DNA of 64,000 nt from Branchiostoma floridae. Taxonomy: Eukaryota; Chordata; Leptocardii; Amphioxiformes; Branchiostomatidae. Positions 5,730 to 49,500 of this stretch are shown one piece after another. The position numbers and the translations under genes were made by a program. Each line of letters begins with the position of its first letter. The first letter of the stretch is position 1. The notes under the pieces are model-generated. The model made no database searches and was not told the DNA's origin. It saw nothing but the letters and a program-made list of their open reading frames with translations. Location of the stretch: NCBI RefSeq assembly GCF_000003815.2, contig NC_049997.1:9199875-9263874 (forward strand), written 5' to 3'.

Positions 5730-8700
5730 GCCCATGAATCTTATATTGCTATTTGGTATTTTGCAATTTGCTATCTGATCAGCTAATGTGTTTTACGTGT
5801 TTTCAAAAGTCACTGATAGAATAATCATACTATCAGATACTCATCAGTCAAGTATGAATCATGAACCACTAAAGGTCAACGATATATTTTGTGACTTTTT
5901 AAACGTTTTATCTCCCAGTTGCTGAGTCTACCTGGGGCGCTGGAGATGGTTTTTAACCTGTCATCTACCGTGAACAGCCCGGATCAGATCAAGGTTCTAG
6001 CTGAAGCAACCGACATACTCCTAAAATCATCTCAGAAGCTCAATCTGGATGATCAAGTTAGTCACTACATTTCAAGTGCACTTTTGCCATTGGTGCTGTA
6101 ATGAAATACTGCTAATACACGGTTGACCTTGCAGCAATAAACGCACTTAATGACATAGAGAAAATCCGGAATCAATAAAGGTGTAGGAAGTCTTCTGCAG
6201 AAAGTATCAAACGTACCAAACTTTATGTAATCTACCGGACTAACCATAATATATCCTAGACATTTGTTTGTGTGACAAAATTATGACTTTTAAAACCATT
6301 GTATGCCATTCAGATGACTAATGATAATTCTTTTTATATTTCGTTAGTAAATGAATATGATTTCAGGCCCAATCACTTTCGATAATCAGCTATACAAAAT
6401 TCAGCTGTCTTGTTACGGAAAATTGTCACATTTTGTTTTTCACGACAAAGATAGAGAAGCCATGGATATTTCTTACACATAAAATTCATGTTCCTAACAG
6501 GTAGCGTCAGGTTACATCATCGGGAAACTGGCGAGATCCATGGGGAGGCTGTCGGGGAGTGGGGTGCGGTTTGTAGACCTGCGACCTGCTGCTTCAGGTA
6601 TCGTCAAGACAGTCTGTACTTACTTATTAACTATTTCAAATATTGTTGTTACCAATGTTGCTGTTGTTGTTGTTTTTGTTATTGTTGTTGTTGCATACAA
6701 ATGCGTCAGGGAGTACATACAAAATGAATATGTGATTGAAAATATTGGGAGAAATTCGAGAGCGAGACGCAGAATGATAAGTGAAAGAATAGAAATTATG
6801 ATAGCTTCTTCATTAGTTGCCTAGAACCATTATGTTAAAAAAAGATATATCCATTCTGATAAAAATTAAATTTTATAGATAGTAACACATACAAGCTCTC
6901 TGTAGCATCATTCAATATCCCAGAGAACAAAAGGGCGCTCCGAAGGGCGTTTATAAGAGCTATATAGATACAGATATAGATGCATTATCAACACTAACCC
7001 CTACTTCCCGTACAGCGATAGTCGACACCGCCTCTACCCTGGTGGAAGCCGGGGTCCAGGAGCAGGTGGAGCTGGAGGACCAGTCGCACTTCCTCCCGCC
7101 CAGGAAACGGAAGCGGTACCAGGAGAAACTGGAGAAGGAAAGGAAGGAAAAGCAACAAGAACAGTGGAAACTTGTGCGTAAACTCAAACGTCTCTTTACA
7201 ATTTGGAATCATAATGATTGTTTTCAATGTAGTTACGGGAAAATATTCTCCCATTGACTCCATGTATCAAAACAAACCGCCATAAGATGCCTTTTATTCC
7301 ACGAACTCTAGCCCAGAAAGGTTTTTGTTTATCTAACTGCTGATGTTAATAGATTTTGAGATTTTAAATTGACATTGTCTTATGCTGCTTTTATTTTATC
7401 TTAAATCATTTAACTGTAATAACGAGTGTTGTAAAAAAAATCAATGCAACTCAGCCCCAACGAGGGCTACAAAGTTGATTGAGAAATAAAGTTTGAAGAG
7501 GACTCCAGATTCTAAAATAAGAATAGGTCGCCCTTACCTCACCTTAAATAAGCTGATTGAAACTGAAGCATGTTTATGTCACCTGATTTATATAACGTAT
7601 GACGAGAATGACAAGAATGACAAGAAAACGAGTATGGTACTAGACAGATAATTGAGAAAACTCTTGGATAGGTACTACAATGATTTCAATTGTGTTTGTT
7701 GATGCAGGAGAAAGAGGTGATCTCTCAACTGATGGAGGAAGTCAACAACGTCGCCCAGGCCGTGTCCAACAGCCTTGAGGTCCCTGGGTCCACCATCCTG
7801 GGAACGAGGTCAATGCAGCTGGTGTTGGACTGGGAGTCTGGGCCCGAGAGGGGAGACGCCCCAGTGTCCATCCCGGCTGGACAAGTCAGATTTCCCGCAG
7901 AGAGAGCGCTGTCCCCTTTCGCCTCGTCTCCAGACGTCGAATGGAAGGTACGCCTTACTTTTGTTGTGGTACTGACATTGTGACAATGGTACCGCATGAT
8001 AATTCTCTTATTACTATGTTGTTTCCTTCTGTCAACGAATGGATACCAACATTCCTGTCCTTGGTACTGATCACTAACACTAGGTGACAACCAATATTCC
8101 AGTCCTTTTTTACTGATCACCAACATCAAGGGATACCAACATTCCTGTCCTTGGTACTGATCACTAACACTAGGTGACAACCAATATTCCAGTCCTTTTT
8201 ACTGATCACCAACATCAAGGGATACCAACATTCCTGTCCTTGGTACTGATCACTAACACTAGGTGACAACCAATATTCCAGTCCTTTTTACTGATCACCA
8301 ACATCAAGGGATACCAACATTCCTGTCCTTGGTACTGATCACTAACACTTAGGAATAACCAAAATTCTTGTTGAATATCAGCACTAAAGGATAACCAAAC
8401 TCCCGCCCTTGGCACTTATCGGATAACCAGCATTCCTGTCCTTGGTACTGAATATCAGCACTAATGAATACACACGCCCCCACCCCCATCCCCCCTTGGT
8501 ACGTACCGGATAATCAGTATTCCTGTCCTTGGTACTGAATATCTGCACTAATGGGTTGCCAACATTCCTGATCTGATAAACATTGGCTTTCTACGACAAC
8601 TTCTCATAGAAACATCGATATTTTCCAGATCACCGGTTTTAACGACAACCCGTACGTGTGGGACAGGTCGGCGGAGGACATCCACTCGTCTGTCGTGGAC

Positions 8701-17594: not shown

Positions 17595-20412
17595 CTAAAC
17601 AAGGTCGAACATGGCCTTGCGAGCTTCGTCATCGCCGTGAGGCTCGAAGAAGAGCGCCCTGTTGGCCTGTTCCTCCTCCTGAGGCTTCACATCATCATCG
17701 CCGCCATCTTGGGTCTCCTCGATGTTGCGGACTTCCTCCATGGGCAGGTCAGGCATGGGGGTGGGCTGGGGGGACAATATCAGAACCAATCAGATGGGAC
17801 AGTGGGCAGGAAAATAATGTAATGTTTTGGTTTGGCTGTTCAGAACGCACAGCCGGGGCTGCCCAACTAGCCTATGGCTATTACAAAGGGCTAGCCCTGC
17901 TGACAAAAATGGAGACAATGCATATGAAATTGGACAGGATACTCATCAATAACAATATTCTAAGTTCATAAGAAGTTAGAAATAAGAATTTATTCAGCTT
18001 TATCACATTTGTGGAAGGATTGACATAACAGGTGACTTTTACCGGGAGGAGGTCAGTAACCCCAGCCTGCAAGAGATTGTGTGAACACATGCTAGAGATA
18101 TTGAAGGGATTATACAATAAAGACCAGAACTTAACATTTCAGAGCAAGGGACATCCCAAATGTTTTACCAACACAGATCCAAAACAATCCAAACAAATAT
18201 ACTTTCATTCTAGATAAAGTTGAACTTTAACTCCTAATCCAAAAATTGAATTTTTCTACTGTTCAACTTAAGTCTTTGTCAAGAAATAAATGATACCCTT
18301 TTAAAGTTTAACTTTATCCAGCATGACTTTTACCAACACAGATGAACTTACAAGTTAGCAAATCTGTTTAAGAAGCATAAAGATCTGAGTAAGGAGTAAA
18401 TCACAAGGGTTGCAGTTTTACCGATGGGATGGCGTCTGGACCGAACAAGGCGGGGTCCAGCTCATCCTCCTCAGCTGTGGTGTCTCCCTCCATCTCAGGA
18501 ACTGTCTCGTCAGAAACAGCCTCGTTCTCAGGTTCAGCCTCATTCTCATCTTCCGCTGGGAGCTCAGGCATCGGAGTTGGCTATGAACAGAGTCATGGGA
18601 ATCATGGGAACATGCATGACTGTGGCACTTGATACACCCGATCCCTTGATTTCAGAAGTTAAGAAATGTTTATTTTACCAGTCCCCTGAGTGAGTGGTCT
18701 TCCTGGGCAATTTTGTAGTCAGGAGCATGCCATGACTGTCCAAGCTCATGATTAAATGTAACATAAATACAGTTAAAGATTGAATACTTCATTCCAAAAA
18801 ATGAATGCTATTCGAAAAATGAATGACTAGCATTCATTTTTACTCTAATGTTTTGAAAACAATAACTTATCAAGAGGCTTAATCTATATGAACATAACGC
18901 TGATTTCTTTCTTCCCACAATGTTTGACATTAACCTACCGATGGCACTGCATCCGGTTTGAACAGATCAGCCATGCTGTTGTCGTTCTCATACACCTTAA
19001 CAATGCTGTAGCTAACAGGTTTCATCTATATAAAGTTAACATGAAGCCGATTTTCTTCCTACAATGTTTGATCAAGTCCTACCGATGGTACTGCGTCAGG
19101 TCCGAACAGATCAGCGAGGCTGTTGTCGTTCTCATACACCTTCACCACGCTGTAGCTGTGGCCGCGGGCCTGCTGATTGTGGTATTCATCCCAAAACATG
19201 ACTACCATCCATTCTAACTATAGTTCAGTTCTGATCTATATGAACATGTTTGACAAACCCTACCGATGGCACTGCGTCCGGTCCGAACAGATCAGCCAGG
19301 CTGTTGTCGTTCTCATACACCTTCACAACGCTGTAGCTGTGGCCGCGGGCCTGCTGCTTGTCGACCGTGTTGATGTAACTCACACTGCCGTCCTTCCCGG
19401 TGTGCTTCGACTCCTTCTTGTGTGTGACGATGGTGTCACCACCCACCTGCAGGGGTGCGGGCACAAGGGTGATATGTAAGAACTTCATATCATCTTTCTT
19501 ATAATCTATACAAACAGAATACAACACGTATTTCGTATCACCCGAGGTACCATCCCTCCTGTGGGTCAGATAGCCCGACGTCAACATCAATTCAAGAAAA
19601 ATTTAAACAAAAGAACTCATTTAGCAATGGTGGGTGTGGAGTGCATTCTATTTGATCAATAAAAGCCTGTGTGATACAACTTAGAAGCCTGTGTGATACA
19701 GTAACTCAGAATCAGCAGACTCCAACTGTGATGGAAACAATTTGCTATCTACTACAGTAACTGAAATAGTAAAAATGGCATTAATTGTAGCAGGGCTTTA
19801 TCCAATTTTTTTCTGCCCCTCTCATTGTTTGGGAGGACATGTAGCTCATTTTCCTTGTACAATCTGTCAACTTTAGCTTATGCAAACACCTTTTGATCAA
19901 GTTCAGATTTTTGGGACAGGTGGGGTGAAATTTTTCTCCATCCCAGCAAGCAAATATGCATCCCAGGACAGAAGGACAGGTCCTGGAGACAGCCATGGTT
20001 TGCACCTCCATACCTTCTTGGACTCAGTAGATTCCTTGCTGAAGTCAGGATCGTCTGTGTCCAGGTTGATGTCGATCTCTCCCATCATATCCCCCATATC
20101 AGGCAGTCCTCCCATCATCTCCCCAAAACCTGGCATGTCGTCCATCATGTCTCCCATGTCGGGCATGTCATCCAAGTCCTTCATCATATCTATAGGGAAA
20201 GTCATATGTTATAAGGTGGTCTTGCATGTGGTTAGGGTTCTTGACTTAGAACCTTAAGTTAAAGGGTTATGAGACACAGATGCCATCAACATCAGATTTC
20301 TAGCTAGAAAGGCAACCATTTTGCAAAAATGCAGAATGTTTTCCCTCTAGCCTTGTGTCAAGCTACTCGCATGCAAATTACTATAGCATTAGGCTCACCA
20401 CAAAGTTGTGTG

Positions 20413-24679: not shown

Positions 24680-24812
24680 AAAAGTAGCAGAAATTGTCCA
24701 AATAAGACAGAAAACACGCCAGAGAAGTTAGATGTCCGAGGAAAACGACCCAAGGTATTCCTCGGCGATCTAACTCCTTTGGGGTGTTTTTTGTCTTATT
24801 TGGACAATTTCC
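24680..24812. repeat. Palindromic MITE
   Basis: GAAATTGTCCAAATAAGAC at the left is inverted at the right as GTCTTATTTGGACAATTTC. Inner CCGAGGAAAACGACC pairs loosely with GGTATTCCTCGG. It sits just past the stop codon of the SLCO gene, so it may lie in its 3' UTR. Confidence 0.8.
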
Positions 24813-24864
24813 ACTATATTTCCAGCGACGTTTGGAGCCTGGTAGAGGCAACAAGTCAACAGAA

Positions 24865-25196
24865 CTACTTATATTTGCTCGAGTTGCCCCGCCCCCTCTC
24901 AAACACAACCCATCCTGCCGACAGTAGCATGAAGCTGATCCAGAAGTAAATCCCGGTCAGCCCGATGGTCAGGTAGCGGTTAGCGTCCACGTCATACAGG
25001 AGACACTCCCCCTCCGTCCGGCCGCACCGCTTAGCGAAGATGATACAGGACACGTCAATCACCGCGCCGAATATCACCGGAGCGAGCAGACCGCCTGGAG
25101 AAAGAGGAAATGCAGTCAAATTAATTAATACTTTTTGTATTTACCTCCATGAAATATCATGGAGGTTATATTTTACCCAGCGTTTGTCTGTCTGTC

Positions 25197-25227
<31 letters not shown>

Positions 25228-28200
25228 AAACAAGATAACTAAAGAACGGCTGGATGGATTGGTTTCATACTTGGTGTGTTGGTAGGGTGTCATGAAAGCT
25301 GGAAATGATTAGATTTTGGGCCAACTAGCGGCCCCCTTGGTACTGCAGCGCAACGTCTGGTTTTGATATCTCGGTGTTTTGAACATGCTATGGTCACGAT
25401 TTTTTAGTATTAGATAGCTCTTGTGCTCAGGAAAAAATGACATAAGTTTGGGCCCCCTAGCGCCTAGTTTTGGGATAGCAGGGGCATTTATGTCAAAAAC
25501 TTCTGACGAGGATAACTCAAGAAGGGAACAACGGATTTTCATGATTTTCGGTATGTAGGTACCTTAGACAATGTTGTACAAGATAAGATACTAATTATGC
25601 AAAATAGGAGTACATTTGCATAATTAATGAGACTATTCTTTCATAGCAGTTTTTTCAATGTATCTCTTGTCCCGGACGTAATATGGTCGTGCCATTTGGG
25701 TGGTAGATAGCTTTTAGCGTCATGACAAAGTGGGACAAGTTTCAGTCCCCTAACATTTAATTGTGGAACTGCAGGGGCATTTTTGTCAAGACACTACAAA
25801 GAGGATAACTGCAGAAAGGAACGACTGAAAGCCTGCATTTTAGGTATGTAGGTAGCTTGGGCAAAGATATTCATAATGATATGAAGTTTATGCAAATGAT
25901 GGCTTAATTTGCATAATTAATGAGGAAATTGTATAATTCCATTGTTTGCAATATTTGGACTTGTTAATTATAATCGGTGGAACATATGCAGATATCAAAT
26001 ATGCAAATGAACTTATTTGCATAATTTATGCAAAACAACTTAGTGATTAATTATATGAATTGGGAATTTTACTTGTGACTGTACGTTATTCAATGATGAA
26101 CAACACCATGCATAAATCATCTTAATGTTAAGTCATTTGCATGAAATTAACAAAAGCTCTAAATATTCATGGAGGCATGAGGTCGCCGAACTCTAGTTAT
26201 ATTATGCTTTTGAACTTGTATGATTGCACTGTCCGATAGGACATAGATGCGCAGCAGATTTTTTATCATCGTCACTCCCATTAATGGTATCATTATCACC
26301 ATTGTCATTATCAGTAATATCATCATTGTTATCATCACCAATATCCTTAATGTCATATCGTTATTGTCATCATCATCATTATCGTTATTAGCATCATCAT
26401 TATTGTTGTTGTTGTTTATCATCACTAAACAGAAAATCTAACTTACCAAGTATACGACCAAAGAACCCGGCTGCACCAAATGCCATCGGTCCCTCATTGG
26501 TACCAACCGACCTTCAAAGAAAAGGGAGAAAACTTTCTGTAGTCAATTTTGTCATAGTTTGTACTTGGTATGCACTACAGTAAAGATTTCTTAAGCAACT
26601 AAGAGAGAGACAGGGGTCAGGAACTAGCTAATTACATCGGATGAACATTACCTCATGATATTACCCCAAACTACCCTTATCAGTATGATATGTTCGTATT
26701 TCCAAACCAGGGCTCAACCGCGATGTGTGGAACAGAAATTATCAAGCTGATGACAATTTTTCCGCTCTGTGTGTTTTGCTTTCTTTCATGCTATTTTTTG
26801 TTTGTTCATACGTTTCTTTTCGTTTCCCGAAAGCTGCCCGGCGGTTTGGACATGTGAGCTTAGCATTGGCTAAAAATATACTAGTACTCCCTATTGGCAT
26901 TGTAGTCGTGGACGAGTCTGGTAGAGAGTGTAGATTTAGAATACGCACCTTCGAATCCCGACCACTGCACTAGCAGACACAGTGGACTACAAAGACTTTC
27001 CAAGCAACGGCCTGGGCCAGGCACTACTACTAGCAAATATGCTTTTTAGGCATAGTAGTCATAGACGAGTCTGGTAGAGAGAGTGGTTTTAGAATATATA
27101 CCTTAGAATCGCGATCATGAACGGCGTGACGAAGAAGGTCATGATGAATGCCGTGATGAAGAGCAGGAAGACCAGAAACACGTCACTGGTGCAGTCTTCA
27201 TCCGGGCACTGGTTACTCTCTGCGTAGGAGCCGCTGTACCGTCTGCCCTCCAATGGGATCACGCCGTGGTGCACGCATGCGCAGTGGGAGTACACCTGTG
27301 ACAGATATAACATTAAGACATTATAAATCAGATTGGTAAACATACAACTCATCTGAGATGAATTTATGATCACATCCAACCCATTGCATGTCCGTTATTC
27401 TCTGGTCAAGTATCTGGATCTGTCATTCTGATGAGGGCTACAGCATGACTAAAATAGTAATTTTTCAGTGTATAAAAAGTTCTGTTTTGGCAGAAAACTT
27501 ATAAAGACTAAATATTTATAGCCTCATTTCTGTCACTTTTCGATATGATTCCTTTGTGATTTTCCTCCTTCTAATGTTCTTGGTGTTATTACGTTCTTAG
27601 TGAGTTCTCAGCCGGGACGGGGGTGATACAAACTTCCAACAACCTTTGACCCATTGCTGACGTCATGTATGTATAAAGTAACGTGTCCTAAGCAATTGGG
27701 TCAGATAGCTGAAGAAGACTGGGCAAGTCTATGAAAAATTCAGGTGAGTCCATTGTATCATAGTTGAAGGACAGTTTGTGTCATACGAGAGCAGGTATGG
27801 TAAGCTACAACGATAAACTTCAACTTACAAATATCTCCAGTTCTGACGTGTTGGACACTTTGGTGCGATCCTTGCAGCCGGCGTAGCACGGGGAGAAGTA
27901 GGTGACGTCATTGGCGCCACAGACGGGAGCGAACTCCTCGTCCAGACAGTGACAGGCCTGGTTACACTCGTCCTCTATCAAGGGAGCGTACGTATGGAAG
28001 TTCAGGAAGTTAAACCTGGGGCGGTGCCTGTGTGGAGGGAAATAAATAAAACATTCAAAACAAGAGGTTAAAGGTATCAGGCCTCCGTGAAATATGTAGA
28101 GTTCCAATTTCACTTCGTTCTCTATCAAGGGAGCTTACGTCTGGAAGTTCAGGAACTTGAACCTTCAGGAAGTTAAAACTTGGGCGGTGCCTGTGTGGGG

Positions 28201-31200
28201 GAAATGGATAAAACATTCAAAGGTGACTCCCACATCAAAGCCACGTACTGTGGTCTCACAAGTGCATTCTTTGGGAAATAGGAAACCCCCAAAATAAGAA
28301 ATCGAACATCTCATACCTCCTGTAGTTTTGTAAATATCTTGTTTCATTCATTATGGCGAATTTATCGCTCATTGCGTGCATGCATTTTTCTGCCAACTTT
28401 AAATCCGGGTCGAGCTAGCCAACCTTCCCATCCTGCCAGTCTTCGGTTACTCCATTTGTCTTTCATTTCTTAAAGGTCTTAGCGTTATTGTTTCGGCACT
28501 AGAATAATGATTTCTATTACTGTTTGGTCTGCTTCACACAACAAGACAGTCAACCTAATCAAATACATGTATTGGACAAATTTGTATTTCCCTTTTACAT
28601 ACCATTTTCCATGGTATGACGTGGTCAGTCCGGCGAAAGGCTGCTGGTCACAGAACAGGCCCATGGCCGGGATGGTCAGCAGGCAGAGGACGAAGCTGAT
28701 GGCGGCGCACAGCAGGACCATGCCCCGGTCAGAGATGTGCCACACCCGCATCACCACGGTGGAGGCCACGGTACCCAGCATAGCGGCTGGTAACACTGTA
28801 AAACCTGTGGAAGATAATCATCATAATGTGTGAATAGTTTCATCAAGTACGAATTGGGACTGCATTCGCAATACTAGAGCAACATCACCACGGTAGAGGC
28901 CTCGGTACCCAGCATAGCGGCTGGTAACACTGTGAAACCTGTAAACAAATAATGATGGTGAAAATCAAACCTGCAACAGATGGTGCATTTGGCGGTACCA
29001 ATCATCGCCCTTGGGCCACACAACTTTGTCCACTTCAGCAGGGGGCTTGTTCACTGGTAGTCGTGTGTGCTCATCTTTCCCAAATACTGAGTGATATTAA
29101 CCAGAGAAAGCAGTATGTGCTTTGCAATCACTAAAGCAGGAGCTATTGTTCTGGTAGTAATCTGTGTGATCAATTGCCATACTCTTTCCCAAATGATGGG
29201 TGCTGAGCAGAGAACACAACGTGTACCATTTTTAAAAGATTTCGTATGACGCCGGGAATCGAATTCAAGACCTACCACACGCCTAATACAAGGCGAACAC
29301 CCTACTAGTACATGACCATTGCACCGACTGTACTATAATATAACAAATGGTGCTACATATATGCAATGTCTTCGATGGCTTGGATATCATTGCAAACAGT
29401 CACTGCTATGGGATAAGAAGCGACCCCTACCGAGAAGCCTGGCAGCTGCAGACGTGGACAGTCCGAACTGCACGCTGATGTACTTGGGCAGGAAGGTGAC
29501 GAAGCCGTTCCCGATGGACAGGACGCACGCCGCCGCCAGCACCAGGGTGATGTACACCATGTTCGTCATCAGGTTCCTCATCAGGCGCTTAAGACCTGGG
29601 ATGTCTGCAAAGGAAAATAGGGGGGTGTCTGTTTATTTGGTTGTTTTCAGAATTTAACGCATCTGATAAAAGACATGTAAATGCTCATGGCAGGTCTGTA
29701 TTAGTCTGTGTGTATGTAAGTCAGTGTGTGTGTCAATGTGTAGCCTGTCTGTCTGTGTGTGTGTTTGCCTGAGTGTAGTGTCTCTCTCTCTCTCTCTCTC
29801 GCTCTGTCTGCGTGTGTGTGTGTGTGTGCGTATGTGTACGTGTGCATGCGTGTACGTGAGTGTGCGCGCGCGAGAGAGAGGGTATGTGTGTGTTTGTGTG
29901 TCTGTGTGTGTCTGTGTCTATGTCTGCCATTTATACTTTATACAAATTTTTACCTTTCATTGCTTTCAAGTCTCTATTTCCTACTGACGTAACCACTGAA
30001 CAAGACTAAATTGTAACCATTCTGAACGTACCATCGAATTTAATGAGCTGTCCCTCCACGTTCTCTATATCCTCCAGCGGATCGTCCTCGTCCGGCTCCT
30101 TGAACACTACTTCCTCGGTGTGCGTGTGCCTCATCTTCCGCGGGAAGCACATCATGGGCACGGCGGTGAGCAGGAAGGCCAGGCCGATGGGCACGAAGCC
30201 GAGCCACCACGCGCCGATCCACCGCGGGTCCTCGTAATCAATACCTGGACGAACAAGAGTATGTCATGACCATTCCTGGAATTCGTGCATACGCACATAC
30301 GGTACACAATATTTAACTACTCGGCTCGCTCCCTCAGTGATCGTCACAAAAAATCATAATAGCAAGTCTACGTTTTACGTCGGCCAAAAAGCATTTACTT
30401 AAGTAACTGGCCATGGATATGATTTCGGAAAAGGTCTTATACTGTATCATATTCACAGCTAGGATATAAGAACTGTCTCCAGCAAGATGTCTCCACTTTC
30501 ACTGACGAAAGACACCAGATTGTTGTCTGAAACGTCTGGCCCTTTCAAAAATCATATCCATGTGACGAAAGCTATTTACAGGCCGATAACAACATTCGCC
30601 GAGGCAGTGATCATCACATTCATACGAAGATGAACATGTCTTAGAAAGGTTGTTAGTAAGTATGATGTCATGTCTAAAGTAGGGAAACAGTTCCAATCCA
30701 GTTTTACCTCCGTGTCAAGAAAGGCGTTTCAGGAAATTTTCCTATCAGTGTGAAACGCCAGGATGGCTGAAGAAACAGAGATTGTCTTACCTACGCGTGT
30801 GGAGTCCGCGAACGGCCAGTTGACGTGATACCTGAGTGTGTAGGAGCTAGAAACAGAGTATGCCTTACCTACGCGTGTGGAGTCTGCGAACGGCCAGTTG
30901 ACGTGATACCTGAGTGTGTAGGAGCTAGAAACAGAGTATGCCTTACCTACACGTGTGGACTCCGCGAACGGCCAGTTGACGTGATACCTGAGTGTGTAGG
31001 AGCTAGAAACAGAGTTTGCCTTACCTACACGAGTGGAGTCTGCGAACGGCCACAGTTGACGTGATACCTGAGTGTGTAGGAGCTAGAAACAGAGTTTGCC
31101 TTACTTACACGTGTGGACTCCGCGAACGGCCAGTTGACGTGATACCTGAGTGTGTAGGAGCTAGAAACAGAGTTTGTCTTACCTACACGTGTGGAGTCTG

Positions 31201-32853
31201 CGAACGGATTATCCGATACCTGAGTGTGTAGGAGCTAGAAACAGAGTTTGTCTTACCTACACGTGTGGAGTCTGCGAACGGCCAGTTGACGTGATACCTG
31301 AGTGTGTAGGAGCTAGAAACAGAGTTTGTCTTACCTACACGTGTGGAGTCTGCGAACGGATACCTGAGTGTGTAGGAGCTAGAAACAGAGTTTGCCTTAC
31401 CTACACGTGTGGAGTCTGCGAACGGCCAGTTGACGTGATACCTGAGTGTGTAGGAACTGAGCAGCAGGCCGAGGGGCTGGCCGGTGTTGGGCAGGATCAG
31501 GGACAGACCTGGGGGAGGGGGTCAAGTTTTATTCCGTTTCCATGTTATGTTATTTGATACAAGTCTGACATCCCCCAACTCATGTCATGCCAATCTACTG
31601 GCAGTGTATTCAAATGAATATGGACTCACACGTGCACCGAGACAAACAGACACGCCAGTCAAAAATATACAACTAATCACACAAAAAATCTATACTTTTA
31701 GTTTGCCATGTTTGATCTTATACGTAGTTAGCGTCACACGTGTCCAGTCATCATTTTCTATCACTCGCTATGACTAGCTTATGGAAAACTGAGCATACGA
31801 AAACACAACCAGACAGGCCAACAGCAACACGTCGTCGTGAATTAGTAGACTCTTCCATCTGTGCTGTTTATCATGTATGATTAATGACAGGTTCTACCAA
31901 CTCTGAACTGTACTTCCTGCTATCGATTTTGGCAAGTCTGACTTTTGCGGTCATCTCCCACTCACTTTATGCCAATATACTGGCAATGTATTCAAATAAA
32001 TACGGACTCAAATCAACACAAACAGACACACGTGCACGAAAAACGATACCTCCGCTTTTATAATTATTAATTACGGAGTCAATAAAACTATCAAGATTGA
32101 CCACTCACCAATATACAGGACTGAGTTCAGTTTGGACACGTGATCGTCCAGATACGTTGTTCCCAGAGGAAGCAGCGGCGCCTCCCCCATCCCGGAAATG
32201 AACTGCGCGATCACCATGGTGATGACCCACCCTCCTGACTTCAGCCTCTGCCTCGCGTCGCACTCCATCTCCACCGTCTCGTTCGACTGTTTGGCCGCCC
32301 GACACAGCAGCGAGGAAATCCCGCTCGTCCTCTCCTTGAGCTGTATCTTGTACCAGTACCTCTCCCCTCCCGTCCCGAAATGAGGAAGCGCGAAGAAAAA
32401 GCACGACAGCGCCATGATGATGATCCCGATAGCGATCATCTTTGGTCTGTGAGCGTTCGGTTTCCCGCCAAAATACGACACTAAAAGGATCATGCTGACG
32501 AAGCCTAGATCGTTGGAGCCGTATATGAACCCTGACAGTTTACTCTCCAAGTCGAAAACTTTTTCGACAGTTGTTAGGATCCCTTGCGTGTACCCTAGCC
32601 ATAGGTTACATAGGGTTATAGCAAAAGTCCAGACGACAGAAAACAAGGCAGGGTTTGCGAAACATTGGCAACAGTCAGGCGTGCACTGACAGCACCCACA
32701 GCGGTTTTCGTGCAATTTAAACTCTTCTTCTGGGTCCTCAGCGTAGTCGAGTGTTAGTCGCCGTCCGTCGGGACTCGGAGGGATGCCGAAGTCATCTTCG
32801 GAGTCTAATTCGCCTCTGTATAGGCTACTGTTTCTCTCCATGAAAGACGTCAT
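24865..32853 (-). CDS. SLCO: Organic anion transporting polypeptide (OATP/SLCO family), 9 exons, 709 aa
   Basis: Exons in transcript order: 32853-32109, 31508-31401, 30244-30032, 29604-29431, 28804-28603, 28027-27829, 27295-27102, 26511-26447 and 25094-24865. The total is 2130 bp with every phase matched. OATPs are 12-helix plasma-membrane carriers for amphipathic organic anions. Visible marks are SGFIYGSNDLGF and VSYFGG in the first helices, GTTYLDDHV near helix 4, the OATP signature around EDPRWIGAWWLGF, and a Kazal-like extracellular loop with conserved cysteines (CNQACHCLDEEFAPVCG, PCYAGC). Late helices include GGLLAPVIFGAVIDVSC, the usual OATP ending. TYLDDHV looks nearer to group 4 OATPs than to the YIDD groups, but the subfamily is unresolved. 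Start MTSFMERN chosen; another in-frame Met lies upstream at 32958. Exon 2 ends in a 78-bp tandem array that multiplies its donor, and two introns hold partial exon copies. Confidence 0.9.
25138..26190. repeat. Large non-autonomous repeat with palindromic ACCTCCATGAAAT end
   Basis: Begins TACCTCCATGAAATATCATG, followed by (TCTG)n/(TG)n (25185-25229) and GAACGGCTGGATGGATTGG. It ends near TATTCATGGAGGCATGAG. Inverse copies occur at 38640-39192 (CCAGCCGTTCTTGAGT, TTTCATGGAGGTAATAATG) and 57860-58258. The interior has internal near-repeats (GCATAATTAATGAG twice). No open reading frame of note. Confidence 0.7.
26259..26423. repeat. Degenerate ATC/ATT trinucleotide-rich tract
   Basis: Loose runs of ATCATTATC, ATCATCATCATT and TTGTTGTTGTTG in the intron just downstream of SLCO exon 8 (minus strand). 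It ends about 20 bp from the exon's donor. Confidence 0.75.
28118..28190 (-). pseudogene. Degenerate copy of the 5' edge of SLCO exon 6
   Basis: The 5' edge of exon 6 (28027 downward) and its acceptor recur about 160 bp upstream in transcript direction. The copy has CCCACACAG, then GCACCGCCCAAGTTTTAAC against GCACCGCCCCAGGTTTAAC in the true exon. After a small internal insertion it again matches exon sequence (TCTATCAAGGGAGC). The acceptor is preserved, but the copy has no downstream donor or Kazal cysteines. Confidence 0.7.
28881..28938 (-). pseudogene. Partial copy of the 5' edge of SLCO exon 5
   Basis: An acceptor (TGTTTACAG) followed by about 56 bp closely matching the start of exon 5 at 28804. 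Of three differences seen, two are synonymous (TTT/TTC, TCC/TCT) and one changes Val to Glu. The copy ends after the ACCGTGGTGATG block, then diverges without a donor. Confidence 0.75.
28985..29320 (-). mobile_element. tRNA-derived SINE (same family as 10459-10730)
   Basis: The minus-strand head includes TGTTCGCCTTGTATTAGGC and a box B-like GAATTCGATTCCCGGCG. The body shares CCCTTGGGCCACACAAC and CATACTCTTTCCCAAATG with the copy at 10459-10730. Part of the body appears twice (about 29010-29110 and 29120-29215). Located in the SLCO intron between exons 4 and 5. Confidence 0.7.
29700..29930. repeat. Compound (TG)n/(TC)n/(GA)n microsatellite
   Basis: Long TG-rich runs interrupted by TCTC and GAGAGA blocks in the SLCO intron between exons 3 and 4. 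Open frames here are composition artefacts. Confidence 0.9.
30412..30562. repeat. Inverted-repeat element
   Basis: CATGGATATGATTTCGGAAA at the left pairs with the inverse TTTCAAAAATCATATCCATG at the right. The motif GAAACGTCTGGCC with a preceding CACTGACGAAAG also occurs near 2505-2570 and 54077-54140, so it is a dispersed family. Confidence 0.7.
30786..31445 (-). repeat. 78-bp tandem array duplicating the end and donor of SLCO exon 2
   Basis: Nine copies of the exon 2 terminus (encoding VNWPFADSTRV) with its 5' splice site GTAG/GTAAG occur. Exon-end positions are 31401, 31335, 31257, 31183, 31105, 31025, 30947, 30869 and 30791, so spacing is 66, 78, 74, 78, 80, 78, 78 and 78 bp. The 31401 copy joins directly to the unique part of the exon and splices in phase to exon 3 (giving STRVGIDY). 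The 78-bp unit is 26 codons with no stop in the coding frame. Every unit also carries the acceptor-like TCTGTTTCTAG. Confidence 0.9.
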
Positions 32854-34885
32854 TTTGTTAGTTCTTGTGTACTTTTGGCTTTTGTTGATAAAATGCTGAC
32901 CGTTTTCACATATCAAAAACTTCCAGTGTAGTGTTTCTGTTAGGAGAAAACAAATCATTTTAGAACGCTTTTTTCAATGATTCATATTATACAAAGATAC
33001 AACATTCTTGTTTCATTACCAGCATTAGAACGATTCACAAGGCCGCCTGTTCAATTTTCAAATCCATTTTTCACAGTTTTACGATGGCAAAAATAAAGCG
33101 CTGCAAGTATACCTTAGACTTTTAAGATATAATTAGATAGTTACGATTCAAGATTACGAAACTACCCCTGAGTATGGTGTATTTTTTCAGTGTTGCTTGA
33201 TTTTCGATATGAAGGCCCCTCCCACTCCGCCATCTTGAAGGCTCCGGCACCATTTTGAATATCATCATTACACCTTTTCCTGCCATCCTATATCTAATAC
33301 ATTTTACTGGTGAAACATATGTTTGTATGCTCACGTAATATTGTCATACCACGTATACATAAAACCAAACGTAACGAAATATATGATGCCAAAAGGGTCA
33401 GAAAAAGAAAAAGTTTAGCAACACATGTTATGAAAATGTGTGGTATCGACGCTTATTTGCCCTCTGGCGGTTTCTCTTGTACACTGCAACCACATGTTAG
33501 CAAGAAGCTGTCTTGCGTTACTACAGTGGCCAAAACAGCCTCAATAAAGTTTCCATGACATTAGAAATTACCAATATTGAAACAGAAATGCACTGTATCT
33601 CACCTGGTTACGTGTTCTCGTTGCTTATGGGTCCTAACACTGCCATGTTGTTCGAGCGTTGTAGCATCTATAAGTAGAAGCCTCTGTTCTAAACCGGACG
33701 GACAGGTTTGGAACTCAGTACTGTGAATCATGTAAAGTTTGCAACCCATTTTTCTCGACCATGTGGCGAAGAATGCCATTAGAAGAAGAGTTTGGAAACT
33801 TCTCACGCGTCTTTTAATTCAAATTGTATATATATTCTTTCGTTGTCATTTGAAAAGTTAAACTTGCTCTATTGAATTGTTTTCAATAATATTCATGTAG
33901 GCAAAAATTAAATGCTATGGCGTGTCGTTATTGGGTTCAAACTTTCACTGATTACCGCGATTCGTCCCTTTGTTAGCAGATAATCGGCTGAACAGATGTC
34001 GCAAAACATCTCTCAGGTGTCGCAAATCTCTTGCACTTCGTATTGTTTTGGATTCATTGAATGAGATGCACGCATTGCAAATAACGTTATATTTTGTCTT
34101 TGTGGTCCAGATTTGCATCAATTTATCCGTTCTAAGCTAGCATACAAGATAAGTTGTAAGCATTTTTCTTTGTTAACGCGGTTAGGTTGTTGAAATTTAG
34201 ATTTTCTATCATTGTTGATGTTAAGTTACGAAGAGTTTTCCAGTACGCATCATAGATACCATACTGAGATAAAACAAAAGGCATCTATCGACGGCTTTCT
34301 AGAAATAGCAACCTCTAGCGGAACATACCTAAACTGCACGTCACATCCATTCACTGATTTGACCAAGCCTTGTTTTAGTTAATCATTTACAAGGTTCAGT
34401 TGACATTGTCCAAACAAACTAGAATCTGCAGCCAACGATCAACACCTGACCTCCCAGTGACCCTTGAACTCAGATCGCAGTTGTCAGAGAAAGGGGCGGA
34501 CCTCAAAGAACTGCGTGGGGTTCGTCGTTTTAAGGAAGAAAGGACGATATGAAAAATAAAATGAACATTGAAGAGGCTTCTCCAAAGACTCTAGCCTCTG
34601 TAAGAACGAAATGCTAACGATAGAGTAAAGTAACACTTACATTTAAACTTACGTTGGTGCCTTGTACGTGAAACTATATAGACTTGTGGACACACAAAAA
34701 TCACAATGCAGAATCATTCTTGAACATGGGCTGCTCCAATATTTACAGACCCCAACCACCAGGGTTCTAGCTGACCTGAAATGAACCGTCCCTAGATGCG
34801 AACTTTTACCCCTGTCATCCAGCCCACAGTTTTTGGCGGTTAGCTTCTAGAGGAACGCAGAAACTCTGTCGTATGTACCACCACC
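32854..34885. other. Divergent intergenic region between SLCO and SGLT genes
   Basis: The two transporter genes are head to head about 2 kb apart, so this region should contain both promoters. It holds an HNF1-like site (34378-34390) and a TATA-like ACTATATAG at about 34674-34682 on the SGLT side. No repeat family or further open frame could be recognised with confidence. Confidence 0.5.
34378..34390. promoter_or_regulatory. HNF1-like binding site
   Basis: GTTAATCATTTAC matches the HNF1 palindrome GTTAATNATTAAC at 12 of 13 positions (N counted as a match), about 0.5 kb upstream of the SGLT start codon. HNF1 factors are established activators of mammalian SGLT genes. A chance match cannot be excluded. 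Confidence 0.4.
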
Positions 34886-37800
34886 ATGGCGGGAGTTCAG
34901 ATCGAGGTGGCCGACATTATCATCATAGTACTGTACTTCATACTGGTTCTTGCAGTCGGACTATGGGTGAGTTAAGGCTCTTTTGACATCTCTGCGCCTT
35001 TCTTCTCGAGAAAGAGGTGTACTGGGGCGTGGTATGTCTCTCTTCAGTCGTACAGAGCTGTAAAGCTGCGACACTTGTAGCTACATCGTCCCTTGTACAT
35101 CGTACACATAATTTGTGACACACGGTAACTGGGAGTCACATTCATCGTTGAAAGACCGTTAACGTTGTACTATTTGATGCATGGGTGTGATAGGATTTCC
35201 AGCATAAAAGAGCCAATCGCCGATAAGACAGACTTTTCCGTACCTAGACAGCTCAAAATTCCACACGACACGTGCGCGATTATCGCAATAATGCCTTCAG
35301 TTTGTGATCGTACGAAGTACCACAAATGTGGCTTAAACTATACCCTAACATGCAAGTGTATAACAACTTGTTATCATAAACGATGTTCATATTGTGGGTA
35401 TGGCTAGCCCAATAGAAAGATTGATGATTCAGCACATCTGGTCCTTGTTGTTGAGAGGTAACACGCCTAGGACACTCCCCTTTCTGTCAACTTCTGTCAA
35501 CTATCACAAACAAACGCGACCTTTTCGAGAGCACGCTACAACAGAGCAAGGCCGTGGTCAGAGTCCTGTTTTATTAGTTAGAGCTAAAGGTGGTATCTCA
35601 CTGTCCTTGGGGCACGGCACAGCAGGGTTCAAAAGATTACTCAACGAATTTCAGAAAGAAAGAATGAATTTACTTATGTTTTGTGTATTTTGTTGTCTTC
35701 TAAGTCATACTGTTACGTATTACGCAATATCTAGATTATTAAAGAATCGGCGAAAATAACACAACAGTGCCGCAGTAAACGAACCCCGCAGTGTCGCACA
35801 GGTGCCCCAAGTACAGTGAGATACCATCTACAGTTAGAGCTAACGCTATTAAACATTGCAGGAGTTGTAAAGATTTGCCATGACTTAAACAATTTGTTAA
35901 GCTAAGTTTGATTTTCAAAAGACTCGAAAGTGAATGACATTCATCTTGGCCTCCACCTTGTTCGCCGCTAGCATGAGTTTGTTCCCAGATGGCAGATTTA
36001 AAGATCGAAAAACTGACCGCATTCCGCCCAACCCCACAGGTTTGTAACAGCTTTTCCAGACCAGTTCTAGTGTGTGTTTTTTTTTCCTGACTACAATTTG
36101 TACAAATCATTACGCTTTGTTTCTAGTCGATGTGGCGGTCCAACCGAGGCAGTGTCAAAGGGTACTTCCTGGCGGGAAAGAACATGTGGTGGTTTCCGGT
36201 AAGTCACGTGACCTCAGAAGTTATCGTCATCATCGGATGATACTCGTTTTGAGAACAAAAACATGTATCTTAAGATAAAATATATTCAACTATTTTGTGT
36301 TGTACTATGCATTTTTGACTTCTAAACCCTATGGTGGTTATCAAAAGACATATAAATCATTGTATACCACTGGGATGATTTAGATTTAGATGTATTGAAA
36401 TTGCAGACAATGCGCAATACAACTCAGGCAGCTAAGTCGATATTGGGTGCCAACACATACATTTACACTTTTCATAGAATACACATTATTAACTCAAATG
36501 GTTAACGTATACTTCAAAAGACAAACCTTTTTGAGTAGAATATGTTTGTTTTCATTTCAGGTTGGAGCGTCTCTGTTTGCCAGTAACATCGGCAGTGAAC
36601 ACTTTGTGGGACTGGCCGGGACCGGAGCGGCGGCTGGGATCGCTGTGGGACAGTACGAGTGGAACGTAAGAACTTTATCGTCCATATCATTTTCATGCAT
36701 GTAGTCTATGAGAAAACGTGCATTTAAAGCAGTTTTAGACCGACAGAAAGCCTGTATGTCTTTTTCTCCATCAGTCGCAGCGAGCCATTTTAGTTCACCG
36801 TTAATCATAGCTGGCCAGTTCTGATTCAACGTTAAGGATCGTTAAGCGTTTTTCAAAGTCACAATAGAGCATCCGGTTGTGTTGGTACTCCCACAAACTA
36901 AAGTTTATTTTTGCCGGTTATACATGTAAGATGAGTACAATGGAACAATTCAACTAAACTGTCTAAACTGACGAACATATACACTTGTGCATTACGCTGT
37001 TTGACTCCATTTATTTAGGATTCATAAAGTATTCTTTTTCTAGTCCCTGTTTATCGTCCTCCTACTCGGCTGGGCGTTCATGCCCATCTACATATCGGCA
37101 GGAGTCTACACCATGCCAGAGTACCCCAAATCTCACTTTGTAAAGTAACAGATAAGATAGATGATTGCTATAATTCACCCTGTATCATCAGAATATTCTG
37201 CTCTTGTTTTATCTACTAGTCCCTGTTTATCGTCCTCCTGCTGGGCTGGGCGTTCGTGCCCATCTACATCTCGGCGGGAGTGTACACCATGCCCGAGTAC
37301 CTCACGCGCCGGTTCGGTGGACAGCGGCTCCGGACTTACCTCGCCACCCTGTCTCTGTTCCTCTATATCTTCACTAAGATATCGGTAAGAACATTAACTT
37401 GGACAATATAGCTTGGATACAAAAGGTATAGGATAATATAACTGTACTTCTCGTCATTTATTCTTGTGTAGGTTTTCACGTTATCTGAGTGACACTCTAC
37501 TCTACTAGTCGTCCATTTAAAACGGAACCCGGCCGGGCAGTTTGTGTGAAGTATGGCATAAAAGACATCAAACACACAAGACGTAAAACAAATTAATCAT
37601 TAGCAAGGTTTGTGTATATTTCTTGATATACACTTTTGTTTCTCATCCTAGCAAACAGTCCGGTCGGGCACCGGTTTGGAAATGGCACCCTAGCATTAAA
37701 AATCGTACTATTCCAACAACACATTTACCTACAATGAAATACATACTATAACAGTTACGTCCCTCTTCCCATATAGCACTATGTATGTATCCTTTGCTGT

Positions 37801-46500: not shown

Positions 46501-49500
46501 AGTTCACAGTTCCAAGACATCTTGGCGGCGGTTCTTGTCCTTAAAGGTGTCACTGGAAGTCCTCAAGACGTAATTGACTTAGCACTGTTGTAGGGTCAAG
46601 GTAGCAACAGCGAGAGGTCGTGCCGAAAAACGCCTGGTCCCAAACTAATTGTTATAAATTTATATAAAGCACAGCTGCATTGAGGTGTGCGTTACCGAAA
46701 GATTTACGGATTTGAGCTAATGACTGCATGTAACGAGAATACGTGTCTGGAAATAATGTTCCACTGTAGCTAATTGACAAACTGTGCTAAAACCTTAAGG
46801 TGGCGGTATCTCACTACACTTGGGGCACCGGTGCGGCACTGCGGGGTTCGAAAGATTACTAGACGAATTTCAGAGTTAAAGAACGAATTTTCTTACGTTT
46901 TGTGAATTTTGTTGTCTTCTAAGTTTTGTGAATTTTCTTGTCTTCTAAGTCACTACTTTTACGTATAACGCAATATCTAAATTATCTAAAAAAAATCAGC
47001 GAAAATAACACAACAGTGCCGCAGTGAACGAACCCCAAGTGCAGTGAGATATCACCTTTACTCATCAAGTCGACGAAGAAACATTAGAATCTTTCCCAAC
47101 GTACTAAATTTCGTCATTTGGTTTTTCCACAGTACGCTATAGATGCTTTTAATCTCTGTTGAGCTAAGTTTATCAAATCTATATCTTCATAAGACCTTGT
47201 TGGCGCCCGAAACGATCATATAGTAGCTATTTTTTGTGGTTTTATGTGTAATTTCAGACCTCTGGTAGATATCACTATTTCCGCACCCGTAGGTTCCATT
47301 TATACACCAAGGATTAGCTAGATAGAACAAGACTCACGGGTCAAGACTAAAGACCAAAACCCTGTAACAGAATCTGTTCCACCGAGTTTAGACGAGGACA
47401 AGCACAGAGACGCTACTATGATAATACTACAGGCTTTCATAACGACTTCCTTGGCAAGGATATGCTATTAAGTCCCATACCACTGAAAAACAGCGTTTTG
47501 AGCTCACTCAACTCAAGCAAGGTATTGAAAGGTGCTTAAACAAACTTTCCAACGTTTTCTTACGCCTTTGCAATCTATGTTTGGTACCACAACACTCCCC
47601 ACGCCCCAATAACGCCCAAGTACATGTGGCCTGTGGTATCGAGTCAGTTGCAACTCAGTATGACGTTTACTACTGCAAATATATAGCAGTCTATTAAGAC
47701 TTAACAAGATTTTACTTCACGATAAAACGTACAAATGACAATTTACTTGACATTATTGCTGAATGTTTAGATTTTACCCTGATTTCGCTAACGAGGTAAC
47801 ATGATTCTTAAGTTTTATTTGCAATCCAAGAAGATGTTGGATAATGCGAAGACAAAACAAAGAATTTCAAACGTAATCGAAACTACCCTGGACATTAAAA
47901 TAGTATTATCGGGATATCAATCTTGACATTTAAGGATTTTATGAGTTTATCTTACTTTAGTTTTCTACTTCAACCTAGGAAAGAACCTTGGCCTTTACGG
48001 GACACTGTATATCTTGTGTTTACGAAATAACTTTGTTCACACGTGGAAACTTTTGGGAAATGTTACAACGGAAGTCTGATTGAAATATAAGCTTTAATCG
48101 AACATTTTTTGGACCTTTGCCCATTGTGTATTTTCATCAAAGCACAGGAAGTAAAGGAAAGTGGGAGAGAAGGAGTTAGACAGTTAGAGTAACTTTATCG
48201 CTGAAAATCCGTTAGTTTCAACAGAAGTCTGATTGAAATATAAGCTTTAATTGAACATTCTTTGGCCTTTTGCCCATTGTGTACTTTCAACATAGCACAG
48301 GAAGTAAAGCAGTGTGGGAGAGAAAAAGGTGGGTAGTTAGTACAACTTTATCGCTAACTGTAAATCCGTTAGTTTGGGAAGTCATCTGTTTATGTGGCCC
48401 TCTTCCAATTCTATAATTTGAACAGCTTGCGACATCTTTCAATCTAATACACTCTGGTATAATGTCTTCTACAAATACAATAAAGGCTACAATCGAAATT
48501 TACAATATGGGTCATTGCCAATATCATTTTTAAAAGCTTGTACATGTACACCTCTACTGAATCTGGATGCGTTGAACGGGTATTATCCAAGAGGTTACGG
48601 AGTTTAAGCGTCCTAGACTCCTTACATCACAAGTATTCAAACTATAAAGAAACCGCCACAAAATTGAGTAGACTTCTTCTTTAATATAATAGTCTACCGC
48701 TCACTTAGACTATTTAAATTGCCAGAAGCATGTTTTGGGGTCACGTACAATTCTTCCTGTCAGAGGATTAGGACCAAGGCTTTGGAGCTAATTAGAAAGG
48801 CACGTAGTCTTAATTATCGAATTTGAGACTTTCTGTACTCATGGTGTATCTCTGACCTTGTTGCATCACTCGCCTACGGTTCTGTGTCAAATTTTCCCGT
48901 TATTTTGTCTATCATTGGAAGAACAGGCAGGAAAACGAAAGCTTTGTGGTAAGGTTTCTTTTCCGCTCAAGTGTGATAAATATGTAGTCTTCATTGATGA
49001 ATTTGAAACTTTCTGTACTCGTGATATACCACTGACCTTGTTGTGTCACAGGCCTACGGTTCTGTGTCAAATTTTCAGTTATTTTGTCTATCATCAGAAG
49101 AACAGACAGGAAAACGAAAGCTTTGTGGTTAGGTTTCTTTTCCGCCCAAGTATGATAAGTATGTAGTTTAATTGCTGAATTTTAAACTTTCTGTACTAAT
49201 GATATATCACTGACCTTGATGTTTTACTCGCCTACGGTTCGGTGTCAATTTTTTCAGTTATTTTGTCTATCATTAGTAGTTCAGGCAGGAAAACGAAAGC
49301 TTTGCGGTAAGGTTTCTTTTCCGCTGAAGTGTGATATGGGAGGACTTGTCCAATTAGCCTTAATTCTAAACGGAAAGAACTGTAGACGCGCTCCAAGGGC
49401 AGGCCCTTAACAAGCTGTGTTAGCAGGCTGCAGTTAACCCCCAATCGGTGTCCGCTGCCTCTTAATACCATTAATGTTAGGAACTTATCTTGACCTTGAG

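Follow-up and report, generated by a model that had tools for sequence, protein, structure and literature searches.

Tandem repeats lying across exon/intron borders, known as mirages, have been described in lancelets for Adh3 (Canestro et al. 2002, via PMC3087553) and for the globins BflGb6 and BflGb9 (PMC3087553), and are also carried by PGBD5 and TnC (PMC3902484). Reported unit lengths are 10-72 bp for Adh3 and 150-160 bp for the globins (PMC3087553), and 60 and 108 bp for PGBD5 (PMC3902484); the duplication in BflGb9 has a spacing of 157 bp, and the 150-160 bp units of BflGb6 are present as six and three extra units in two haplotypes (PMC3087553). The Adh3 data, together with RT-PCR of the globins, are said there to suggest that regular splicing is undisturbed by mirages, and the same source notes that mirage copies could serve as cryptic splice sites (PMC3087553). 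In the case of PGBD5, the JGI model of the lancelet gene annotated repeat copies as exon without transcript support, according to PMC3902484. The parts of a huntingtin paper that mention tandem repeats in that gene do not say of any of them that it spans a border (PMC2206037).

The array described here, at the end of exon 2 of an SLCO gene, resembles the mirages of Adh3, the globins, PGBD5 and TnC in that border-spanning units multiply a splice site, with units of tens to about 160 bp and at either border. It differs from them in belonging to another gene family, in its nine donor copies, in being one of four mirages in a single gene, and in offering two in-frame, open extensions of the exon. 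An SLCO array as a member of the known mirage class, the presence of four mirages in one gene and the two open extensions are what is new. Among the best matches listed from the open-licence literature on lancelet border repeats or SLCO, no title or abstract opening reports such an array. The sequence-only reading that pointed out the array had overlooked both this known class and the same kind of duplication at three other exon edges of the gene.

The window, i.e., the whole stretch of DNA that was analysed, comprises 64,000 nucleotides of Branchiostoma floridae (contig NC_049997.1), and the SLCO gene runs on its minus strand from 32853 to 24865. With the donor at 31401, nine coding exons joined by GT-AG at every junction encode 709 residues: exon 1 (32109-32853), exon 2 (31401-31508; 108 nt, phase 1 to phase 1), exon 3 (30032-30244), exon 4 (29431-29604), exon 5 (28603-28804), exon 6 (27829-28027), exon 7 (27102-27295), exon 8 (26447-26511) and exon 9 with the stop codon (24865-25094). 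The Pfam OATP profile (PF03137) matches exons 1 and 3, and a Kazal domain matches exon 6, which holds a Kazal-like segment. Exon 3 begins G/GT ATT GAT (a slash marks the border throughout) and carries DPRWIGAWWLGF, an instance of DxRWIGAWWxGF, which we take to be the OATP signature; profile and signature together place the protein among the OATP/SLCO transporters. The protein matches the solved chains of OATP1C1, 1B1, 1B3 and 2A1, and its residues 69-695 align to OATP1C1 with an E-value of 5.8e-84 and with no gap at the joint of exons 2 and 3 when the donor at 31401 is used. This joint directly precedes the DPRWIGAWWLGF motif and presumably falls in the loop that links transmembrane helices 5 and 6. 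The gene, exon, phase and copy number assigned by the sequence-only reading all agree with the gene model and the unit dissection. A search of the genome with PF03137 gives 113 OATP exon matches, which are spread over many contigs and cluster on C17, C3, C13 and C10; the SLCO family of this genome is large.

The mirage array consists of nine tandem units of ~78 bp at 30771-31455 on the minus strand. Tandem Repeats Finder fits a period of 78 with 9.0 copies and a score of 1107 over this span, which is slightly wider than the limits of 30786-31445 given earlier for what is a real array, and it also fits a period of 158. A full unit is made up of 56 nt from the end of exon 2 and 22 nt from the start of intron 2, and the unit lengths from the exon outward are 78, 66, 78, 74, 78, 80, 78 and 78 bp, followed by the ninth copy, which runs into unique intron sequence. 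GTAAG stands at an identical point in 9/9 copies, as had been noticed, and the claim that only the copy at 31401 is joined to the unique exon body is likewise confirmed: unique exon sequence continues into copy 1 only, which forms the end of exon 2, and the surplus copies are all intronic in position. The authentic donor, GTAAGG, has its first base at 31400, and the eight surplus donors (30785-31334) have their first intron base at 31334, 31256, 31182, about 31104, 31024, 30946, 30868 and 30790. Compared with the authentic donor from -3 to +6, they differ at +6 only, with the exception of copy 5, which differs at -1 instead and reads AA/GTAAG in place of AG/GTAAG, so that an extra, overlapping GTAAGT arises four bases upstream. 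Over ungapped columns, the copies are 86-100% identical, with copy 4 responsible for the low values, and 94-97% identical when copies 2 and 4, which have large indels, are set aside; this likeness is far beyond chance. One of the three altered-length units (66, 74 and 80 bp) keeps the frame, copy 2 having lost 12 nt in frame. The units run across the border of exon 2 and intron 2, repeat its splice site and, at 66-80 bp, fall within the published lancelet range; the array belongs to the amphioxus mirage minisatellites.

A copy number inflated in assembly, or an array misassembled as a whole, has to be considered here, given that published lancelet mirages were misassembled in a draft genome and vary from one assembly or haplotype to another (PMC3087553, PMC3902484). 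The units are nevertheless distinguished in an ordered way by private substitutions and indels, and when the 513,431,437-base genome was searched at the DNA level, a single place was matched, the array itself; we regard an artefact as very unlikely. The existence of the array looks secure and its exact copy number less so. A dispersed repeat or introner is likewise not supported by the single match in the genome.

The age of the donor and of the intron can be read from paralogs. When the peptide of exons 2-3 was compared with 29 SLCO loci (29 of 30 cut out of the 113 matches), the highest-ranking matches to exon 2 that have an intron here were two paralogs (L006 and L007), each with the same 108-nt exon 2 and a single donor, ending ATTG/GTAAGT and ATTG/GTGAGT, respectively, at the same codon and in the same phase as in the window gene. 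More distant SLCO loci (L003/L013, L019-L021 and L027) have no intron at the place of the exon 2/3 joint and reading continues through it. A 9.7-kb stretch with 8/9 exons of one close paralog and exons 1-3 of the other held no local direct repeat found by the detector used. Since L006 and L007 keep the 108-nt exon 2 and one donor without the array, the donor at 31401 is ancestral to the three genes and the intron predates the array. It has been proposed that new introns can arise from mirages (PMC3087553), and tandem genomic duplication is described as a route of intron gain in the Rogers model (cited in PMC3087553) and for potato RdRp (PMC4974935). The SLCO array shares with these cases a local duplication with a splice-like AG/GT, from which intron 2 itself might have been created. 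It differs from them in that intron 2 is old, with the array inside a pre-existing intron and no intron created, and the presence of that intron at an identical codon and in an identical phase in two paralogs that lack the array makes its birth from the array extremely improbable. We thus reject a gain of intron 2 by tandem duplication, the intron being present already in L006 and L007.

Only two of the surplus donors, the second and the third, are compatible with coding. Their use (exon ends at 31335 and 31257) adds 66 or 144 nt, i.e., 22 or 48 codons, in frame and with phase 1 kept, exactly as had been calculated, and yields open reading frames of 732 or 758 codons, stop included. Translation from any of donors 4-9 meets a stop at codon 357, where the TAG that ends copy 4 is read owing to the frameshift of the 74-bp unit; the earlier statement that the unit holds no stop in frame is thus correct for copies 1-3 and wrong for the donors beyond. 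In tandem alternative 5' splice sites, several usable donors stand behind one exon, a few nucleotides apart. The SLCO array also has several donors behind one exon, though these are candidates only, and they lie 66-80 nt apart by duplication and not a few nucleotides.

Donors 2 and 3 might be used at a real rate, in which case the loop joining helices 5 and 6 would gain 22 or 48 residues and its length would vary with repeat number. Such functional donors would be in keeping with the two open, phase-preserving extensions, with the in-frame nature of the 12-nt deletion in copy 2 and with the close match of the surplus donor sequences to the authentic donor, yet several observations make this unlikely. 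Neither of the two paralogs nor OATP1C1 has a matching insertion; one in-frame unit among the three of altered length is the chance expectation; and each of this gene's decoys at exons 5-7 would bring in a stop if spliced. The retention of GTAAG in 9/9 copies also needs no selection to explain it (P about 0.33, taking the rough substitution rate of the array itself), and this retention test across the nine copies does not demonstrate selection on the surplus donors. Of the alternative donor choice put forward in the sequence-only reading, the arithmetic survives; the use of surplus donors is improbable and not supported, given the single donor of the paralogs, the ungapped alignment to OATP1C1 and the published Adh3 and globin RT-PCR data. 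It is quite improbable that the array acts as a tunable length switch, with donors 2 and 3 used in some tissues or alleles; if it did, some SLCO isoforms would carry an additional 22 or 48 residues beside the OATP signature, and repeat number would set the possible isoforms. Each unit also holds two acceptor-like spots, TTTCTAG and CTCAG, through which small cassette exons could in principle be spliced, with a shift of frame; cassette exons of 56 nt inside the array are rejected as coding exons, as by unit arithmetic they would shift the frame.

In all likelihood, the exon 2 array is a lancelet mirage minisatellite whose first donor is still used and whose surplus donors are removed with intron 2. 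The exon-side break (CTCAG/TTCC) and the intron-side break after the last copy (TTCAG/CC) have TCAG in common, and the internal junctions read TTTCTAG/CTCC. A local tandem duplication at such a short shared sequence probably captured the final 56 nt of exon 2 together with the adjoining 22 nt of intron 2, after which one altered junction may have been amplified to nine copies by unequal exchange or slippage, in part through steps of two units, since copies 5-9 alternate between two variants (GCGGA and GCAGA) and the period of 158 also fits. Under exon definition, the spliceosome would use the donor closest to the acceptor of exon 2, i.e., that at 31401, which gives the shortest exon (108 nt); the other eight near-identical donors would leave with intron 2 and the protein would be unchanged. 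Exon definition, neutrality and this mode of expansion are inferred. Preference for the first donor is most likely, to judge from the paralogs and from the published RT-PCR of other genes. In vertebrate reporter genes, equal duplicated donors often behave otherwise, the one nearest the 3' end of the intron being favoured, and textbook reporter results would not predict that the first donor always wins. Were the donor nearest the 3' end of the intron favoured here, the protein would be ruined. Mirages serve as natural experiments in splice-site choice, with nine near-identical donors in a row in the present case, and those of lancelets could bear on whether exon length alone fixes donor choice.

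Duplications of the same kind are found at other exon edges of the gene. Seven direct-repeat families are present in 24800-33000, of which D2 is simple sequence, D5 lies in intron 1 and five fall on four exon edges, viz., the end of exon 2 (nine copies), the start of exon 5 (two copies), the start of exon 6 (two copies, in two families) and the end of exon 7 (two copies, with 16 nt of the exon). The 5' end of exon 5 (28749-28808) is duplicated upstream at 28883-28942 on the minus strand, with the acceptor TTTACAG/GTTTCACAG, at a spacing of 134 and 95% identity, and the use of this copy results in a frameshift and a stop. The 5' end of exon 6 is likewise duplicated upstream (28115-28221, minus strand) with the acceptor CACACAG/GCACCGCCC, at a spacing of 147, an acceptor shift of 163 and a gapped identity of 77.8%; its use also results in a frameshift and a stop. 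The last 16 nt of exon 7, together with the beginning of intron 7 (27049-27117), recur downstream at 26896-26964 on the minus strand, with the donor GAAG/GTGCGT, at a spacing of 153 and 83% identity, and reading through gives a stop. In the acceptor mirages, the copy joined to the exon body, which would be the one used, is the last. Taken with the authentic edges, the duplications at exons 5, 6 and 7 span 28749-28942, 27968-28221 and 26896-27117 (minus strand). A neighbouring gene for a sodium:solute symporter (SSF) on the plus strand has a surplus exon start at 37040-37128, the authentic one being at 37216-37304 (spacing 176, 91% identity). Other local repeats in the window lie at 8041-8551, 18929-19361, 48062-48355 and 48804-49336, with spacings of 89, 144/181, 153 and 179 bp.

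The frequency of local duplication at exons was compared with that in intervals shifted by 600-1200 bases off the exon matches, using self-blastn with a spacing of up to 450, a length of 30 or more and an identity of 75% or more. The exon sample was drawn from SLCO (29 of 30 loci cut out of 113 matches), SSF (27 of 30 out of 69), globin (9/9) and CCT loci (41 of 60); the window loci (L001, L005, L045, L049 and L056) and an array piece (L071) were left out of the exon count, and some of the loci overlap or come from one gene. Local duplications touch 6/106 exon matches (SLCO 3/29, globin 2/9, SSF 0/27 and CCT 1/41) versus 26/479 shifted intervals (Fisher P = 1), where the exon rate is a lower bound, as the matches are profile matches and not full exons, and where a few of the shifted intervals, screened against the listed matches of the same locus only, may hold unlisted exons. 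Two further loci (L039 and L066) have repeats within 30 nt of an exon match. The sampled loci thus show no targeting of duplications to exon borders. We read this as lancelet DNA duplicating locally at a fair rate anywhere, with copies that enter exons surviving when the surplus is intronic and spliced out; the sample suggests that mirages are the visible edge of a general local duplication rate that is not aimed at exon borders. The window SLCO gene has mirages at 4/9 exons versus 6/106 in the sample (Fisher P 0.003), or at 3/8 without exon 2, by which the gene was chosen (Fisher P 0.016), a clustering that is suggestive only, as the comparison was made post hoc and sets whole exons against profile matches.

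Mirages are also found elsewhere in the genome, among them two in SLCO loci on contigs other than that of the window. An SLCO locus on C17 (L071 and L025; C17:7697300-7701659) has 17 copies (16.9 according to Tandem Repeats Finder) of a ~91-103-bp unit at an exon start with its acceptor, and a related locus on C6 (L024; C6:17211237-17214431) has six copies of a ~91-103-bp unit at the same exon start. L024 and L025 are 88.9% identical over 2280 aligned columns and differ strongly in copy number. The globin search of the genome gave nine matches, of which one (L036) has an exon-end copy at a spacing of 157 bp by self-comparison, equal to the spacing published for BflGb9, and another (L040) has an exon-start array of 4.2 copies of 158 bp, which is BflGb6-like. 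Further duplications of exon edges are seen in an SLCO paralog (L019, 1642-1861; spacing 113, 88% identity) and in a CCT chaperonin gene (L076, 6750-6920), where 37 nt are duplicated at a spacing of 134 with 97% identity.
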